In this document: positions 18,529 through 33,420 of the stretch, one piece after another | Layout of the letters: each line of letters starts with the position of its first letter | Numbering within the stretch: the first letter of the stretch is position 1 | DNA from: an uncultured Lachnospiraceae bacterium | GTDB lineage: Bacteria > Bacillota > Clostridia > Lachnospirales > Lachnospiraceae | Direction: 5' to 3' | Length of the DNA stretch: 34,108 nucleotides | Assembly: GCA_947623805.1 (NCBI GenBank) | Contig: CANQHZ010000036.1 | Coordinates: forward strand, 1-34,108 | Position numbers and translations under genes: made by a program | Notes under the pieces: generated by a model | Database searches by the model: none | Told to the model about the DNA's origin: nothing | Seen by the model: only the letters and a program-made list of their open reading frames with translations

Positions 18529-20205
18529 CTATATTTTTGCTGCAGAAAGCGTAGAGGTTTTCCATAATTTAACCCTGTCAGTATTCAGCATGTCAGAATA
18601 TAATCCCTTTAGGTTTTCAACATATTTTAAGCTGAATATATCGTCATCGTAGCATATATACAGCAGCATATTTTTTATTGCGGGCGCTCCCAGCTTTAAA
18701 TAGTTCTCTATGCGTATGCGTGCAGAGTAGTCATCTGAAATATGTTCAAAGCAGAATAAAATTTCCCTGCCGTTTATTTCGGTCTGGCAGCAATTGGCAA
18801 GCGGGAAGCTGCCGCCGCGGTATTTAAAAAAGCGCATGTTATCATATTCGCAGCTTGAGGAAGCGACTTCTTCCGTACCCGCGAATCTGGATAAGTCAGG
18901 GCTGTTTTTCCTGTATTCACATACAGCCTTTAAATGGGATTTTTCAGGGCTGCGGCTAAGGCAGGGGTAGCATCGGAAAAAATCAGTCCCGTCGCAGTCG
19001 TTGTCTGACGCGGTGAGTTTTAGTCCTTTAAGTATGAGTCCGCTGATGTTTGAAGTTTCAGCCCATTTGAAGATTTTCTCCCTGCGCTGCAGGTATGCGT
19101 CGTCGTGCCTGTCCATATCTATCCCCGGCTGTCTGCATGATATATGTGGCAGGCGGTTAGGAGAGAGGAAGCGTCGCACATCCTTTGTGTCAGGCAGCAT
19201 TTCGTACATATTCTTAAAGTATGATATCATATTTTCAAATGTCCTGCTGCAGAAGCTGAAATTTTCAATAAAGCTTTCCCCGCAGCGTATAACGGCATCA
19301 GGGCAGTAGCTTATCAGTTGCTCATGCTCGGGATTTTCCAGAAAATAGGAGGCGGTGCAGACTATTGTGTCCAGCATGTTCCTGTATTGCTCAAGGGTAT
19401 ATTTCCCAGGCAGGGGATAAGCAGAAGCAGCGGCATCAGTGGTCAGCCCGCTGTATTTTCCAACGGTAAAGTGCAGGCATGTTCTATTTAAGGCTGTTTC
19501 ATCAGAAAATGCGAGCGCGTAGTAGCGGTTAAGCTTGTCAATAATTGTGCCCTGCTGTTCGGTGCCCATGTCATTTTCAAAAAACATGTTTATGGGAACA
19601 GGGCGGCTGCATATAAGGTGCGCGTCCGCCTTAAAATGGTTACGGTTCTGGCTGAATGAGGAAGTCAAAAGCCTGCCGTTTGCATTTACGGGCGTATTCA
19701 GGCAGAATGAGTCAATGCTGCAGCGGATGCCGAAAGCTATGTGCAGAAATATCAGGCTTATGTTAGCCGAATGGATTGAGTGGTTATCATTTTTGTGTAT
19801 TAAAAAGTGTTTCAGCAGGCATATGTATTCTCTTGGAATCTTTTCATTGCTTTCGTGGAAGGCGGCAAGCTCCTGAATGCCTTTGGAAGTAATGCTGTAA
19901 AGGTTTGTTCCTTTTACCGATTCACGGCTTATGTTTCCTGTCTTTAGCTGGTATGATATAAAATCGTTTAGTATTTTGGTGTTCAGGGTGCGCGGTGTTC
20001 TGTCAGGGCGTCGGGCGCAGAGCATATTGTAGGAGAGCTGCAGCAAAAGCCCCGTTATCTCGCGGGTGGTGCAGCCCCATATTATAAGGTGCTGGTAGAG
20101 TATGTATTTTATGCCCTTATAAGGGATTTCTATGTCTCCCGTCAGCATTCGGTTAAATATATTGATTGAGTAGGTCATGCTTTCATTCATAATTTTCTTC
20201 TCCAT
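18529..20205 (-). CDS. Large unrecognised protein with N-terminal winged-helix-like region
   Basis: I do not recognise this 558-residue protein with confidence. Residues about 30-115 look like a winged helix: helices around LIIWGCTTREITGLLLQLSY, then a basic segment (CARRPDRTPRTLNTKI), then a wing-like GTNLYSITSKGIQEL. The C-terminal part includes GREILFCFEHISDDYSARIRIENYLKLG, roughly what is seen in replication-relaxation or nuclease-like proteins of mobile elements (weak inference). Cys residues are scattered without a clean zinc motif. It is the second gene of a two-gene operon, 38 nt after the 751-residue gene. The start at 20205 is uncertain: an ATG at 20190 has GGAG 9 nt upstream. There is no signal peptide or membrane span. 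Confidence 0.7.
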   Translation of the reverse strand: MEKKIMNESMTYSINIFNRMLTGDIEIPYKGIKYILYQHLIIWGCTTREITGLLLQLSYNMLCARRPDRTPRTLNTKILNDFISYQLKTGNISRESVKGTNLYSITSKGIQELAAFHESNEKIPREYICLLKHFLIHKNDNHSIHSANISLIFLHIAFGIRCSIDSFCLNTPVNANGRLLTSSFSQNRNHFKADAHLICSRPVPINMFFENDMGTEQQGTIIDKLNRYYALAFSDETALNRTCLHFTVGKYSGLTTDAAASAYPLPGKYTLEQYRNMLDTIVCTASYFLENPEHEQLISYCPDAVIRCGESFIENFSFCSRTFENMISYFKNMYEMLPDTKDVRRFLSPNRLPHISCRQPGIDMDRHDDAYLQRREKIFKWAETSNISGLILKGLKLTASDNDCDGTDFFRCYPCLSRSPEKSHLKAVCEYRKNSPDLSRFAGTEEVASSSCEYDNMRFFKYRGGSFPLANCCQTEINGREILFCFEHISDDYSARIRIENYLKLGAPAIKNMLLYICYDDDIFSLKYVENLKGLYSDMLNTDRVKLWKTSTLSAAKI

Positions 20206-20243
20206 TTCTTTTCCATTTCTTTAGCTGTTTTTTATTGTTTGCA

Positions 20244-22499
20244 TTATGCTGTTGGCATTAGGTCTGATATTTTTATAGGAATGTCGCCTGGTTTTTCTAT
20301 GCGCGTGCATTTATAATATATGCGCCTGTCCTTTAGCTCGTATTTCCTGGCGAGGGATACGCAGGGCCATTGCAGCAACTCATATGTCTTATTGCTTGTT
20401 TCCAATGAAAAGAGGATAAGGCAGTTTCGGGTAAGCCTTAATATGTATGTCTTGCCGAGGGTAAAGGCGTCTTTTTCCGCAAGCGCGCGTATGAGCCCGT
20501 TGTAGAAGCTTTCGCATACGTCAGGGGCTGCCGTGGCAGAATATGCGTAAAAAGTTCCCGCCAGTTTTGGGCATATTGTATCGAAACACTGGGTTTCATA
20601 TTGAAAAAGGCTTTTGCGTTTATACGGAACGGTTATGCCGCTGAATATTTCGCTGCATTGGGAAGAATATCCCATGCTCATTGAAACAGCCGTGGACTGT
20701 TCAAGCTCATCAAGCCATCCGTCCAGGGACAGCTTTGCTTTTGACTGTGTGAAAATGGTTTCATAGTATTTCATGGCTGACGGATAAAAGTCATCGGGAC
20801 AGTCAAATTCACGCTCAAGCAGTGCGGACATCAGGGCTTTGAAGCTGGTCGGAAGCCTGCCCGATATGCCTGAAAGCCTGTATATGTCCTTTAAATCATA
20901 TATCCTGCCGCCGTATATGCCGTAAGACTTTAACAAAGCATATACTTCCATGGCGTTAATTGATATGAATAAAGGATTTTTCCGTATAATGGTTTTCATC
21001 GATTTGACGGCGGCAGGGGAGGAGAGACTGAAAAACCATAGGTGTTTTCCGTGTATGCATATCAGGATGCCTTTTTGTCCTTTTATGGCTGCAGTTTCTG
21101 CCGCTATATGGCAGGAGGCATTTATGTCCGAAACATAAGGATAAGCCTCATATGTCTGTTCTTTTGTGCAGTAGGGAAGCAGCATATCGGATTTTCCTGC
21201 TATTTTTATCTGTGAAAGGGCATCCGCATCCAAGGAATAATTCTCAGGGTAATATGAGGCAGGATCATCATAGTATATATGCTGTGTTCCTTTAGCATTG
21301 TCGTTTTTTTTCGGAATGCTGTCGTGGATTGTGGGCGACAGCAGTGGGGCAGTGGGTGGCGCTGGCTGTTGAGCGTGGCTCTCGTTCTGTTTTATGCAGG
21401 TCTTTTTCTCTTTATTATCTGTAATTTCTTTATTATTTTTTTTAGAATTATTCTTATCAGTGTGTGCTCTGCCTGTCTGCCTGGCGCTCTTTTCTATAAT
21501 ATTGACGCTCTTATCTGTTACAGGTTTATCGTTTGTGGATGTATTTATGGCTGTATCGGGAATAACTGTATCCTGGGTGTTATCAAATCCGAAATAGCTG
21601 TCAAGACTTATACATGGAACTTGTGGTTTTGTTTCTTCATATATTTCATTCCGTTCATTTTTAACTTCATCATTATCATTAATCTCTTTCAGGGCGCTGT
21701 GTATTGCTTCTTCGTATGGGTATGAGTATTCTGGGCAGAGGGTACTCCATATTTCGGCCAGGGTATTTTCGGTAATTGCGCCTGTGTCAATGCGGCTTAT
21801 GTGCAGGAGCTCATTATGAAGCCTTTCCCTTACCTTGTCGGCAGATGACGAAAGCTTCAGCTCTTTTATTAGCACGGTGTCAATTTTAATCTTTATAGAG
21901 CTTAAGGTGTCCTCTATGTTTTCAAAGTTAAGGAGGGCGCTGTTGGCTGCGAGGTATCTGAGTATGAATGCATTGAGCTTCACTTGAATTACGCATGGCT
22001 CGTCAGATGGCTCACACTGTACGGCTAATGAGGAACGCATTATTTCCTCATACTGTTTTGGGCTTTTGCCTGAGAGTGAAAGCCTTGCTTCTGGCGGTAC
22101 GTTTCCAGTATGGAGAATGTATGCAAGCAGGGTGTCCTCGCTGTCTTTTCGCATGTTGCAGTAGGTCTTGGAATATCTGCATTCTGTGCATAAGGCTTTA
22201 GGTACGCTCACTGCGCCGAAGGCGTTTATCCGTGTGATGTCAAAACATCCTATGGGGTGTACCCGTTTTCCCTGCGGTTTGATTAGCTTTTTTTTCATTT
22301 CCCCGATTTCATCAGATGAATATTTACTTGGGCATAGCCCTTCGTTGTGGCAGTAGGATATGAAGCGGTCCTCCTGTTTGGCATCCAGTCCGAATACAGC
22401 CTGGTGTAGGACAAATAATTTTTCATATTCCGCATCGGTAAGCTTCTTGTCTGACAGGTATTTTATGCAGGGTGTGATAAGGTCATGGTACTGTTGCAT
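20244..22499 (-). CDS. Large unrecognised protein with Cys cluster and exonuclease-like C-terminal region
   Basis: This 751-residue protein starts behind AAAGGAG. The N-terminal 120 residues hold several Cys positions, including C-x2-C-x6-C in CTECRYSKTYC plus upstream CHNEGLC and GCF, which could bind zinc or an iron-sulfur cluster. Residues about 300-400 are a hydrophilic, Lys/Asn/Asp-rich linker, so the protein is bipartite. The C-terminal part includes KGILICIHGKHLWFF, ISINAMEVYALLKSYGI, YDLKDIYRLSGI and SFKALMSALLE. This order of strands and helices recalls a DNA-polymerase-I-type 3'-5' exonuclease fold (DEDD), but the usual acidic residues are not evident. A role in DNA or RNA transactions with the downstream 558-residue partner is plausible. 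No family name can be given. Confidence 0.72.
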   Translation of the reverse strand: MQQYHDLITPCIKYLSDKKLTDAEYEKLFVLHQAVFGLDAKQEDRFISYCHNEGLCPSKYSSDEIGEMKKKLIKPQGKRVHPIGCFDITRINAFGAVSVPKALCTECRYSKTYCNMRKDSEDTLLAYILHTGNVPPEARLSLSGKSPKQYEEIMRSSLAVQCEPSDEPCVIQVKLNAFILRYLAANSALLNFENIEDTLSSIKIKIDTVLIKELKLSSSADKVRERLHNELLHISRIDTGAITENTLAEIWSTLCPEYSYPYEEAIHSALKEINDNDEVKNERNEIYEETKPQVPCISLDSYFGFDNTQDTVIPDTAINTSTNDKPVTDKSVNIIEKSARQTGRAHTDKNNSKKNNKEITDNKEKKTCIKQNESHAQQPAPPTAPLLSPTIHDSIPKKNDNAKGTQHIYYDDPASYYPENYSLDADALSQIKIAGKSDMLLPYCTKEQTYEAYPYVSDINASCHIAAETAAIKGQKGILICIHGKHLWFFSLSSPAAVKSMKTIIRKNPLFISINAMEVYALLKSYGIYGGRIYDLKDIYRLSGISGRLPTSFKALMSALLEREFDCPDDFYPSAMKYYETIFTQSKAKLSLDGWLDELEQSTAVSMSMGYSSQCSEIFSGITVPYKRKSLFQYETQCFDTICPKLAGTFYAYSATAAPDVCESFYNGLIRALAEKDAFTLGKTYILRLTRNCLILFSLETSNKTYELLQWPCVSLARKYELKDRRIYYKCTRIEKPGDIPIKISDLMPTA

Positions 22500-26681: not shown

Positions 26682-27611
26682 CTACAAAATCTTAATATTG
26701 GAAAACTTCCCCATGTCCTTCACAAGATGTAAAGGAACTTTTTCGTACCTTGAAAGCCATTTTCCCTGTATTCCAAGATAATCCGCGACATCCTGTGGGC
26801 TTGCGCCATTGCTTAATAATATCCGTATTCCCATATTTCTGATTGACAGGAAGGTCAGATTGCTGCTAAGATTATTTTCTTCCGCAGTCTTTTTCAGAGC
26901 GTGTTCAAGGCTCCGTACAGCATATTGGCTTCGGCGCTTGGAGATTAGAAGATATTCATAGTCAATGCTTGTGCTGCTATGAAGCTGCTTAATCATAGGT
27001 CTGATATCTTCCGGCACTGTTAAATATCGCGGATATTCCCCTAATTCATTGGAAGATGCAAGCCTGATGTACATTTTTTCATTGTCATATACAATCTGCT
27101 TTTTCTTTAAATCGGAAATTTCACTTACAGTAAGGCACATTTTAAAGGCAAGGCATACTGCGGTTTTGAGGCTAAGTGTAGGGCAAAATGACAACAGGGA
27201 GTCAATACTTTCGAGGCTGGGAAAATCCTCATCATAATACTCAAGCTTGTCAGGAATTTTTACAGTGACATAACTGAAAGGGTTGCCATGACTGCAGCAT
27301 GGAAAATCCGCATTAATTTCACTGGTTTTGGACAGGGTGAAGAGATGCTCATAAAACGCTTTCAGCAGAGCAATCATGCTTTTGACATATATCGGCTTAT
27401 AGGTACCGTTATTTATGTCGCTGATGCAGGAAGCGTAAAATATCTGAGCATCATTGTATGTTATATGGAAGATGCCCTTGCCGCTGCGTTCGGATAGTTT
27501 TTTCAAAGAGGTAATGGTATTTTTCTTTCTCTGTGGCGCTGCTCTATAACCTGACATAAGCCTGTTAAAGTCTTCATCGTCAATTTTCATATTGATGCTG
27601 TATTCTGGCAA
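26682..27611 (-). CDS. Degenerate tyrosine-recombinase-like protein
   Basis: This protein is similar to phage-integrase/Xer recombinases. An N-terminal SAM-like core-binding region (about 10-95) is followed by a catalytic-like domain. Numbered from the longest in-frame version (start 27692), FKMCLTVSEISDLKK corresponds to TGLRISELxxL, but the first catalytic Arg is Thr (188). LSIRNMGIR corresponds to HxLRHxFAT, with the His lost and Arg285 kept. LGIQG replaces LGHxS, and Tyr316 in SRYEKV is kept. So two or three of six active-site residues are missing. A TTG at 27611 is the likely start, because AGGAGG (27625-27620) lies 8 nt upstream, giving 309 residues; the next ATG lacks such a site. It may be an inactive relative, a DNA-binding regulator or a divergent enzyme acting on the inverted sites just upstream. 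Confidence 0.75.
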   Translation of the reverse strand: MPEYSINMKIDDEDFNRLMSGYRAAPQRKKNTITSLKKLSERSGKGIFHITYNDAQIFYASCISDINNGTYKPIYVKSMIALLKAFYEHLFTLSKTSEINADFPCCSHGNPFSYVTVKIPDKLEYYDEDFPSLESIDSLLSFCPTLSLKTAVCLAFKMCLTVSEISDLKKKQIVYDNEKMYIRLASSNELGEYPRYLTVPEDIRPMIKQLHSSTSIDYEYLLISKRRSQYAVRSLEHALKKTAEENNLSSNLTFLSIRNMGIRILLSNGASPQDVADYLGIQGKWLSRYEKVPLHLVKDMGKFSNIKIL

Positions 27612-27662
27612 TAAAATCGCCTCCTCATTTGCTAATAAATGTATTTGTAAATATTTTAACAC

Positions 27663-27692
27663 AAATTGCGTAACATGTACAGAGCTACGCAA
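27663..27692 (+). repeat. Inverted 30-bp site, left copy
   Basis: It reads AAATTGCGTAACATGTA, then the variable CAGAGC, then TACGCAA. The outer 17 bp and inner 7 bp are identical to the right copy in opposite orientation. Each site is itself an imperfect palindrome (TTGCGTA, 13 bp, TACGCAA), the form expected for a tyrosine recombinase core site or a dimeric operator. Upstream TTAACA (27656-27661) is 16 bp from the TACAGA hexamer. Confidence 0.85.
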
Positions 27693-27833
27693 TTAATTCT
27701 CTCCACTCTCATTTTTTGAATAGTTTCAGGTAATGTTTAGTAAAAATTGGTAGATTCTGATTATAAAATTTTTGTATGGTGGGGGGGTGTTTTATTGGAT
27801 TTTTGATTTGTATGGAAGGGGGAGAGTTTGTTT

Positions 27834-27863
27834 TTGCGTAATATTATACATGTTACGCAATTT
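27834..27863 (-). repeat. Inverted 30-bp site, right copy
   Basis: Read on the minus strand it is AAATTGCGTAACATGTA, then TAATAT, then TACGCAA: 25 of 30 positions match the left copy at 27663-27692. The variable part completes a TATAAT box here, which the left copy lacks. Confidence 0.85.
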
Positions 27864-27870
27864 ATACCAA
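27843..27870 (-). promoter_or_regulatory. Minus-strand promoter embedded in the right inverted site
   Basis: On the minus strand TTGGTA (27870-27865), a 16-bp spacer and TATAAT (27848-27843) point toward the recombinase-like gene 230 bp away. The -10 box lies inside the site, half in the conserved part and half in the variable part. Confidence 0.6.
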
Positions 27871-28233
27871 TAAGTTCTTTTAATATATTGCCATAGCAGA
27901 TGAAAAGTATTCTAATCATAAGAACTTCTCCTTTTGAAAGGTCGTGATATACCCCATTTTGCATTGATTTATCGGGTTTTCCAACACTCAAATCATTTCC
28001 ATGTATAGTAGTCAAATCACAGTCAAAAAGGGATGTTCAGACTACTCCTTTATTTGTCCCAAGAGTGTTCATCATTTAACGATGAACCTATTCATTCCTA
28101 CCCATGAAAGTATAGCATAGAACCGCTTGATTTTCCATTAGAAAAGGAATGGACTATTCCATCCCCATCAAAAATATTTATTTAGATTTCTCTTGAAATA
28201 ATAAGGAAGTCGCAGAATAATTCAAACCATATT

Positions 28234-28388
28234 CTATTTTTTTTCAATCACATAAAATAGTTTGTTTCCCACTGATATTGAAGAATACCTGTTCTTTATA
28301 GCCAATAAAGTATAATCTATTCTATCATAATATCCTGTGCTACCACCTTTAGCAATATTAATTAATAGACTTTCTGACCAAACTTCTC
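28234..28388 (-). pseudogene. Possible 3' remnant of an unidentified gene
   Basis: A minus-strand frame of 50 codons without a start reads EVWSESLLINIAKGG, then STGYYDRIDYTLLAIKNRY, and ends NKLFYVIEKK before the stop. The composition looks like real protein, and in-frame stops lie immediately upstream. I cannot name a family; it may be a truncated gene left by rearrangement. Confidence 0.3.
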
Positions 28389-28502
28389 AACTTTTTTCGT
28401 AAATCATTGAATACTATGTTGGGAAAAGCAAATTCCCTTCTAAAATTCTAGAAATCGATATGTATTTTAATGACTGTTGCATAGCACTGCCTATTCTCAT
28501 CA

Positions 28503-31554: not shown

Positions 31555-33420
31555 TCAGTATGGACGCGCGCACACCACTATGCGATTTTTCCAGTAATCT
31601 GTTAAATCCCCGAACAAAACCCCTTTCTTAGAATTTCTTGCGTCTACAAATTTTCCGTCGCCAACATATATGCCTACATGAGATACATTCCTTACGGATT
31701 TTGATTTTCCTTCGCCCGCAAAAAATATAATATCGCCCTGCTTTAAATTGGATACCGATACGCTTTTATTTTTTCTGACATATCCTGCCGCGTAGCAGGA
31801 TGCGCGTGATGTGCTGCCCGAATTGCCCCATGGCGGTTCAATCGCACACATATTCAGGCACCATAATACAAGACCTGAGCAGTCAAAGGTATCCGGTCCT
31901 GCGGTTCCCCATACATAAGAGCATCCGACTTTGGACATAGCGTAACGCGAAATTGTACCGCCAATATCGTCGTTATATTCAATATCGCCGTCAGGCATTA
32001 TTCCCGCATCGTCCTCGGCCTCTATTTTTGATTTTATGCCGCTGAAAAAATCTTCGTTTGGAATGTATACATCCTTGCCATGCTCAGTCACAGACACAAC
32101 GGTTCCGTTATTTACAATGTACGCGTCATATTTAAGCGCGACCCTTTCTCCTCCTGGAAGCTGCTCTACCATATCCATAAGCCAGTTAAAATCATACCTG
32201 TCAGGATTGTCAAAGCATTCCCCAACGCCTTCAAAAAAGGTCTGCACGCCTATCGCCACATTCATCTGCCCTACACAGTATGCAGTCATCGTGCTGTCCC
32301 TGCCGTTGACCAGCTCTGTTGCACTTACATCCGGATTACCGTCTATGTCCTTGTCTATGGGATAATAAGTGTACAAAAAACCATTGCATCCTCTCATAAT
32401 CAATGATTTTGGCTCAAACCATATGTATCTTCCCGACTCAGTGTCAGGGTCACCCACACAATGGTATATAAACGGCAGTTCCTGGCTCTGTTCATATGTA
32501 TACTTGCTTTTCAGTTTGCTTGCCACGTCAAAGCCGTATCTATAATCGACAATAAAAAAATCCAGTATTTCATCTATCTCATCATTCGTGATTTTTCTTA
32601 CCTCCGTTTCAACCTTGTTTTTACATATAGGACAGTAGCTTTCTTGAAGTATGTCCCCGCAGTACGGGCAGTAGCCGTTTTCAATTCTCCTGCTGTCATT
32701 TTCAAGGTCTTCGGAATCATTGCTGTCGCAGACGGGACAATCCCCTTCACCATCAAGTCCCCGCCCGCAGTCAATACAGAATGCCACGACTCCATTGTCG
32801 TCTGATGCGTCACTTGATTCATACCATATGTGGTTTCCTGATGACGCCTTCATGACAAGCAGCGAATAGACAACCTGCCAGTCTATGGTATACAGCTTTT
32901 CTATTTCGGCAGAATCATAAGAATATACTATTTCCGTATCATAATCCGAATACTCTACCCAGTCATATTTGTCAACATAAATAGTGGTTTTATTTCCCTG
33001 TGAATCGGTAACAGTTTCCGGTACATCCTCCTCGACAAGCTCATACAGCGAATACTCATGCAGCGCCGTAACAGCCGTTGACCTGCTGCGTGCAAGTGAT
33101 GCACCGCTTATCTGACGCTCATTGAATTTTTTGATCTTTTTGAGCATCCTTTTCATCTGGCGCTGTGTAACAGCACAGTTCTGGAAATAGTATTCAAACG
33201 AAGCGTCCGATTTGCAGACTGCTATAATATCATCTATTGTTGCATTGTCATAGTCAATCTCAATGACATTATCCCCGATGCTGCTCATAATGCCGTCTTT
33301 CAGTGACATTATCCCCATAAATCCTCCAGCCGCCATCATAAGAAGAAGAACCAGGGGAAGCAGCGGCAGCATGATAAATATAACAGCCTTTGCTATGTTT
33401 TTCTTTATGTCCTTTCTCAT
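31555..33420 (-). CDS. Membrane-anchored NlpC/P60 peptidoglycan hydrolase with double zinc ribbon
   Basis: This 621-residue protein has one N-terminal span (about 11-36) and an outside-facing body. Residues 215-266 contain two CxxC...CxxC units (C215, C218, C228, C231; then C251, C254, C263, C266), a double zinc ribbon. The C-terminal domain (about 485-621) is NlpC/P60: YVWGTAGPDTFDCSGLVLWC with nucleophile C514, LKQGDIIFFAGEG, and H581 in VSHVGIYVGDGKFVDA. Such enzymes cut stem peptides (gamma-D-Glu-diamino acid bonds) and open the wall for conjugation machinery. It resembles the CD1108-type mobile-element proteins of Tn1549-like elements (from memory). GGAGAGG precedes the start. Two further membrane-anchored genes follow in the same operon. 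Confidence 0.85.
   Translation of the reverse strand: MRKDIKKNIAKAVIFIMLPLLPLVLLLMMAAGGFMGIMSLKDGIMSSIGDNVIEIDYDNATIDDIIAVCKSDASFEYYFQNCAVTQRQMKRMLKKIKKFNERQISGASLARSRSTAVTALHEYSLYELVEEDVPETVTDSQGNKTTIYVDKYDWVEYSDYDTEIVYSYDSAEIEKLYTIDWQVVYSLLVMKASSGNHIWYESSDASDDNGVVAFCIDCGRGLDGEGDCPVCDSNDSEDLENDSRRIENGYCPYCGDILQESYCPICKNKVETEVRKITNDEIDEILDFFIVDYRYGFDVASKLKSKYTYEQSQELPFIYHCVGDPDTESGRYIWFEPKSLIMRGCNGFLYTYYPIDKDIDGNPDVSATELVNGRDSTMTAYCVGQMNVAIGVQTFFEGVGECFDNPDRYDFNWLMDMVEQLPGGERVALKYDAYIVNNGTVVSVTEHGKDVYIPNEDFFSGIKSKIEAEDDAGIMPDGDIEYNDDIGGTISRYAMSKVGCSYVWGTAGPDTFDCSGLVLWCLNMCAIEPPWGNSGSTSRASCYAAGYVRKNKSVSVSNLKQGDIIFFAGEGKSKSVRNVSHVGIYVGDGKFVDARNSKKGVLFGDLTDYWKNRIVVCARPY

Follow-up and report, generated by a model that had tools for sequence, protein, structure and literature searches.

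A tyrosine-recombinase-like gene and its facing inverted sites in an uncultured Lachnospiraceae bacterium: possible binding sites of a protein that most likely no longer cleaves DNA

Does a pair of inverted sites beside a tyrosine-recombinase-like gene mark an invertible promoter? The question is raised by a stretch of 34,108 nucleotides from an uncultured Lachnospiraceae bacterium (contig CANQHZ010000036.1; hereafter the window), in which two 30-bp sites stand in front of such a gene. The left, near site (27663-27692, plus strand) reads TTGCGTAACATGT-ACAGAGC-TACGCAA, and the right, far site (27834-27863) forms the minus-strand dyad TTGCGTAACATGT-ATAATAT-TACGCAA. The two are inverted, identical at 25 of 30 positions and separated by a gap of 141 bp; the TACGCAA of both points inward, and the inner halves differ (CAGAGC on the left, TAATAT on the right). 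The coordinates given in an initial annotation of this DNA all hold. Every site is also a dyad by itself, TTGCGTA-13-TACGCAA. When the 701-bp region was resampled 300 times with a Markov model, no inverted 30-mer pair matched at 25 of 30 positions, 24/30 being the highest value, and the arm pattern TWRCGTAAYATGT has exactly two copies in the 3.96-Mb genome of this bacterium, both at the site pair. A search of the window beyond the pair found no further copy of ATTGCGTAACATGTA at three or fewer mismatches, and on this ground a cassette array was rejected.

The initial annotation proposed that the neighbouring recombinase flips positions 27680-27846 and so switches the direction of a promoter, an explanation that we now regard as very unlikely. 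In its favour are the inverted sites 141 bp apart, the adjoining recombinase-like gene, a shared ACATGTA at which a swap of the inner halves would complete a TATAAT on the left, and a size resembling that of the 174-bp Cdi2 switch of C. difficile, as given in passages of PMC9286219. The promoter-like boxes on which it was built are indeed present, namely TTAACA (27656-27661) with TACAGA 16 bp on, and TTGGTA-16-TATAAT on the minus strand (27870-27843), which faces the gene and straddles the far site, its -10 lying within the overlap. A second minus-strand match, absent from that annotation, is TGTACA-17-TAAAAT with a TG before the -10 (27653-27681); it likewise faces the gene, and its -35 is overlapped by the near site. 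Both gene-facing matches in our consensus scan are therefore covered in part by a site, and both are matches to consensus only, which count as weak evidence because five in 501 bp compare with 2.9 +/- 1.9 expected. None of the five lies wholly within the segment between the sites, which argues against a promoter carried by that segment. Rightward of the pair, moreover, there is no obvious plus-strand gene: all plus-strand ORFs of at least 60 aa there measure 114 aa or less and overlap a longer or similarly placed minus-strand ORF, and a left promoter created by flipping would thus have no obvious target.

The gene itself also argues against inversion. It occupies 26682-27611 on the minus strand, with a TTG start and an AGGAGG at 27620-27625, and encodes a protein of 309 aa that matches the phage-integrase family PF00589 (E 1.5e-12). 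When 21 family rows (the window protein and 20 relatives) are aligned with a canonical recombinase of genome G021 as control, Arg I is missing from each of the 20 rows spanning its position (15 have T, 4 S and 1 Q), His II and His III are each absent from 21/21 rows, and Arg II, kept in 21/21, is the only member of the active-recombinase set (Arg I, His, Arg II, His, Tyr) found in every row. An Arg-Tyr pair stands in 20 of the 21 rows, its tyrosine two columns ahead of the nucleophile of the control, a shift that depends on the aligner; the remaining row (L079) has Phe. Loss of Arg I alone proves little, because CTnDOT-type integrases place their catalytic arginine elsewhere, according to parts of PMC8138268. 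However, both histidines are lost besides, which makes ordinary recombination unlikely, and the alignment suggests that the window protein most likely no longer cleaves DNA. Active cousins may have been overlooked, because the family was gathered with profiles of such sequences. No relative of solved structure was recovered by sequence at the thresholds used, and the predicted structure was of little help (mean pLDDT 46, from a two-row alignment). With dN/dS values of 0.13 (window against L013) and 0.085 (G426 against G021), obtained with an in-house script, the gene is under purifying selection and not decaying.

L013, a MAG of uncultured Lachnospiraceae, and three genomes of the window's genus (G016, G021 and G426) carry close homologues (61-95% identity); two further genomes, G002 and G015, hold broken copies. 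Among 392 sampled genomes of the order, none outside the genus has a close homologue at E <= 1e-30, the own genome being the sole match. The wider family, at about 20-27% identity, takes in G017, which the genus profile search had missed, 12 further genomes of the 392 (E <= 1e-15; 13 with the own genome), and plasmids of Roseburia and E. eligens. Counterparts of the far site are present in L013, G021, G426, G016 and G028; among the upstream regions of close homologues, a counterpart of the near site is present in L013 only, and its absence from G021, G426 and G016 speaks against the proposed switch.

A comparison of related assemblies, suggested in the initial annotation as a way to find the inverted segment, covers one case for the short segment: the sole relative with both sites, L013, carries the segment in the same orientation as the window (score 44.5 forward, -17.0 inverted, up to 18.0 in 200 shuffles), and every site retains its own inner half. 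DNA shared between the more distant pair of modules in G021 and G426 is likewise uninverted, and free inversion would yield two such outcomes 1 time in 4, which makes the evidence from orientation thin. The dyad centres, the expected place of symmetric strand exchange, vary more than any other part of the site, and they differ between partners (TGTATA and TGTACA in the window, TGTGTT and TGTTTA in G021). The lost residues, the unlike centres, the absence of a whole promoter-like match from the segment and the want of an obvious plus-strand gene to the right weigh more heavily against a switch than orientation does. Of the proposed switch, the link to the recombinase-like gene is supported and the inversion is not.

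When relatives are compared, the sites turn out to belong to a larger module, an asymmetric 27-bp site with the consensus TTRCGTAAYATGT-N7-TACGCAA and, on its inner side, a C-rich, G-poor box. Nine sites were compared (two each from the window, L013, G021 and G426, and one from G028): positions 1, 4-8 and 10-13 are identical in 9/9, the centre and inner half are variable, and eight of the nine retain the inner arm's TAC in an ungapped register. Between the window and L013 the sites are kept at 25/27 and 26/27 positions although the spacer has diverged and differs in length (141 and 159 bp). In the window a G-free box with a C content of 0.45 lies 7-28 nt inward of the far site (27806-27827, minus strand), and a weaker one, with C 0.32 and one G, lies 7-28 nt inward of the near site (27699-27720, plus strand). 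All eight sites other than that of G028 have a box with C of at least 0.32 and no more than one G per 22-nt window, against a background of 1.7% of 6198 windows with C >= 0.30 and G <= 1; the weakest boxes are the near-site ones, with L013_near and G426_1 at 0.32-0.36. The box is absent at the G028 site and at the distant L077 site, both of which were tested.

Between the window's sites the gene strand also lacks G, and the plus strand accordingly C, over a run of 79 nt (27758-27836). G-free runs of 48-76 nt follow the five sites measured (the far sites of the window and L013, both sites of G021 and the first of G426), compared with a 99th percentile of 44 nt in a background taken from the window itself, tract included; at the G028 site the run is 16 nt. 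In another subfamily, four members (L074, L075, L076 and E. eligens) show the converse, stretches of 55-77 nt without C ahead of the gene, with the caveat that an unrelated 50-nt C-free run also occurs in G426 and G016.

To what extent does the module follow the gene? A sequence-only profile of the nine modules was run on the genus (38 genomes), and 128 candidates per genome were scored. Modules of at least 28 bits were found in 5 of the 38 genomes at ten places (two each in G000, G021 and G426, three in G016 and a solo one in G028), seven of the ten being training sequences and two of the other three near-copies of those in G426. The next best match scored 19.1 bits; at E <= 1 some match occurs in 34/38 genomes, those below 28 bits being treated as noise. 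The genomes with two or more modules are exactly the four whose close homologue is intact; the two with broken copies have none. The four carriers represent three lineages, because G016 shares about 99% identity with G426 there, and the third G016 module may be foreign, since contig G016:C77 resembles a second allele of the same locus and the genome is estimated to be 7% contaminated. This co-occurrence in the genus supports the tie between site pair and recombinase-like gene on which the initial annotation relied. Extra hits to a looser pattern (G015:C4, G028:C37 and G027) were dismissed as chance, lying within apparent coding sequence and having no C-rich box, as was a G020 match to the spacer that looks coding and has no adjacent recombinase.

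The arrangement of the modules differs among relatives. In the window and L013 both precede the gene, their centres 168 and 186 bp apart; at 10.5 bp per helical turn this amounts to 16.0 and 17.7 turns, which argues against a fixed loop phase. G021, G426 and G016 have one module that begins some 185-210 bp ahead of the start codon; a second is found at a distance of 12.5, 12.4 and 24.4 kb, respectively, from the first, past argH (as judged by eye). No recombinase gene was found beside the second modules of these three genomes, nor any hidden recombinase remnant at those of G021 and G426 at E <= 1.

Boundaries recur at the outer edge of the site. The window and L013 cease to be similar where the far site ends on its outer side (27861). 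In G426 a 1.85-kb stretch with a zinc-ribbon gene, missing from G016:C77, stands between the shared flank and the site and ends about 6 bp or less from the outer edge, and G028 has the outer flank and the site in common but only about 10 bp of the inside. The two modules face inward in 5/5 genomes (window, L013, G021, G426 and G016), which because of shared descent amounts to about two independent cases, a 1 in 16 outcome by chance. Since variable DNA abuts the outer edge and two copies face each other, recombination at the site, past or present, is the main rival explanation: the modules would be core sites recombined by this protein through unusual catalysis, or by an active partner, with the outer edge as a cargo junction. 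The tyrosine kept in 20/21 rows fits such a role. Overall we consider it rather unlikely, as three catalytic positions are lost family-wide, the tyrosine is displaced in the alignment from that of the control and replaced by Phe in L079, the dyad centres of partners are unlike, and the far end of the G426 cargo has no second site. In addition, the right flank of the window bears the scar of another element, a phosphatase gene fragment, that could alone explain the boundary there.

That fragment (27884-27919, minus strand), about 20 bp beyond the far site, comprises the first 12 codons of a low-molecular-weight phosphotyrosine phosphatase gene, after which the sequence is unrelated; in BLAST, intact genes of the genus match it at their starts (13 of 31 subjects). 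A second truncated start of this kind lies upstream of an intact gene in L048, and the 5' end of the gene may be an integration hot spot. Elsewhere, G016:C23 carries at about 22.1-34.2 kb (L098, L026) a 12.1-kb insert between its modules that is missing in the near-identical G426; its two ends have 28 bp in common, and by eye its ORFs resemble a serine recombinase, a sigma factor and a primase. L013 has, in the flank outside the far site, a gene for an 845-aa SMEK-domain protein (PF21941; L013:1459-3996) that matches PADLOC models for Argonaute-associated proteins. Zinc-ribbon matches lie outward of the far site in both the window (31555-33420, minus strand) and G426 (L024:5748-7412), that of the window scoring under the curated cut-off, and one protein also has an NlpC/P60 domain. 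Further away in the window (18529-22499, minus strand), a 558-aa protein with a weak Replic_Relax match adjoins a 751-aa protein with no Pfam match at E 0.01, a gene pair that is perhaps part of a mobile element.

The strand asymmetry of the tract raises another alternative, an origin of transfer served by a tyrosine-recombinase-like relaxase of the TcpM/MobK type, which would nick at the dyad and for which the asymmetric tract would be part of oriT. TcpM is reported to need only its tyrosine. Its oriT is located upstream of its own gene, as described in sections of PMC6137059, and distant relatives of the window protein (24-27%) are encoded by large plasmids of Lachnospiraceae, one of these relatives being immediately preceded by an HTH gene. 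Nevertheless, the relaxases described in the relevant portion of PMC8152469 retain the catalytic pentad, which together with its tyrosine is incomplete here; a Pfam scan of 18 window ORFs, on what is an incomplete contig, detected no secretion or coupling gene, the nearest hint being the weak Replic_Relax match at 18529-20205; and three plasmids bearing relatives were typed as non-mobilizable. We judge this origin-of-transfer role highly improbable.

The explanation that we tentatively favour, and to which we give close to an even chance, is that the pair forms dedicated binding sites for the adjoining, probably non-cleaving recombinase-like protein, which would limit its own expression and perhaps bridge the pair. 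A dimer of the protein would bind each dyad, the bound dimer would hinder the promoters that overlap the dyads and so limit its own synthesis, and bridging of the two facing sites may form a loop. Dimer binding sites had been named as the alternative in the initial annotation, and they fit better than inversion does. We favour a self-limiting binder of core-site-like dyads because the sites overlap gene-facing promoter matches and because a conserved dyad covers the -10 in relatives: in five family members from two other genera (L080 and L082-L085), a 28-bp dyad of other sequence lies over the -10 of a promoter recognised by eye, and it is 96% identical among them compared with 24% and 43% for its flanks (10 pairs). 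The dyad of L082-L084 is TGTTATAGTAT-GAATAA-TACTAATAACA, with variants in L080 and L085. The presence of the module in the same genomes as the intact gene, the catalytic loss, the purifying selection and the retention of both sites between the window and L013 across a diverged spacer are also consistent with binding sites.

Other observations fit the binding-site explanation poorly. The site does not reach the likely promoter (by eye) in G021 and G426, where the second module is also kilobases off, a plain operator leaves the C-rich box and the long G-free run unexplained, and neither the lack of a fixed loop phase nor the variable DNA at the outer edge of the site would be expected of it. In a generic dyad scan 5/18 upstream regions beat all 15 resamplings; for the winners G426, G016 and L080 the best dyad is not the site, and L013's own site did no better than 8/15 resamplings. 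A broader proposal, which is speculative and which we consider rather unlikely, is that domesticated tyrosine recombinases, catalytically dead but maintained by purifying selection, bridge facing pairs of asymmetric core sites, each with a strand-asymmetric accessory box, across 0.17-24 kb, a synapse retained with no strand exchange as a device for gene control or looping.

Searches elsewhere yielded no other source for the pair. A phage origin was rejected, there being no exact match in viral contigs and no relative of the protein there or in phages; so was a plasmid origin, positions 27560-27900 having no plasmid match. An RNA element was likewise set aside, since no Rfam family reached its gathering score in the window and two sub-threshold matches within 27000-28500 were judged to be chance. 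In the open-licence literature, among the matches listed, we recognised no inactive tyrosine recombinase acting as a regulator with its own paired sites. If our explanation is true, gut Lachnospiraceae carry some annotated site-specific integrase genes whose products are not recombinases, and inverted-repeat searches for phase-variable promoters need an active-site check of the neighbouring enzyme. A recombinase that has paired sites and lacks the chemistry would, moreover, allow synapsis to be studied apart from cutting.

How does the locus compare with known systems? It resembles the invertible promoters of gut Firmicutes, such as the Cdi switches of C. difficile, in having, near a gene, short inverted repeats some 150-200 bp from each other (in passages of PMC9286219), and differs from them in that no inversion was seen, no promoter-like match lies wholly inside and the enzyme is degenerate; of the inverton features tested, geometry alone is shared. 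As in the relaxases TcpM, MobK and MpsA, a recombinase-like protein stands beside its own cis site (extracts of PMC8152469, PMC6137059 and PMC6414798), but those proteins keep the pentad, according to the same portion of PMC8152469, and the scanned ORFs of the window include no transfer genes. The first catalytic arginine is missing at its usual place as in CTnDOT-type integrases, again going by parts of PMC8138268, and unlike those integrases the present family also lacks both histidines. Compared with Xer/dif-type tyrosine recombinases, finally, the family is without Arg I, His II and His III, and the inner half and centre of its site vary; yet it belongs by profile to the same fold family (PF00589), and it has, like them, inverted arms around a short centre in a site beside the gene.
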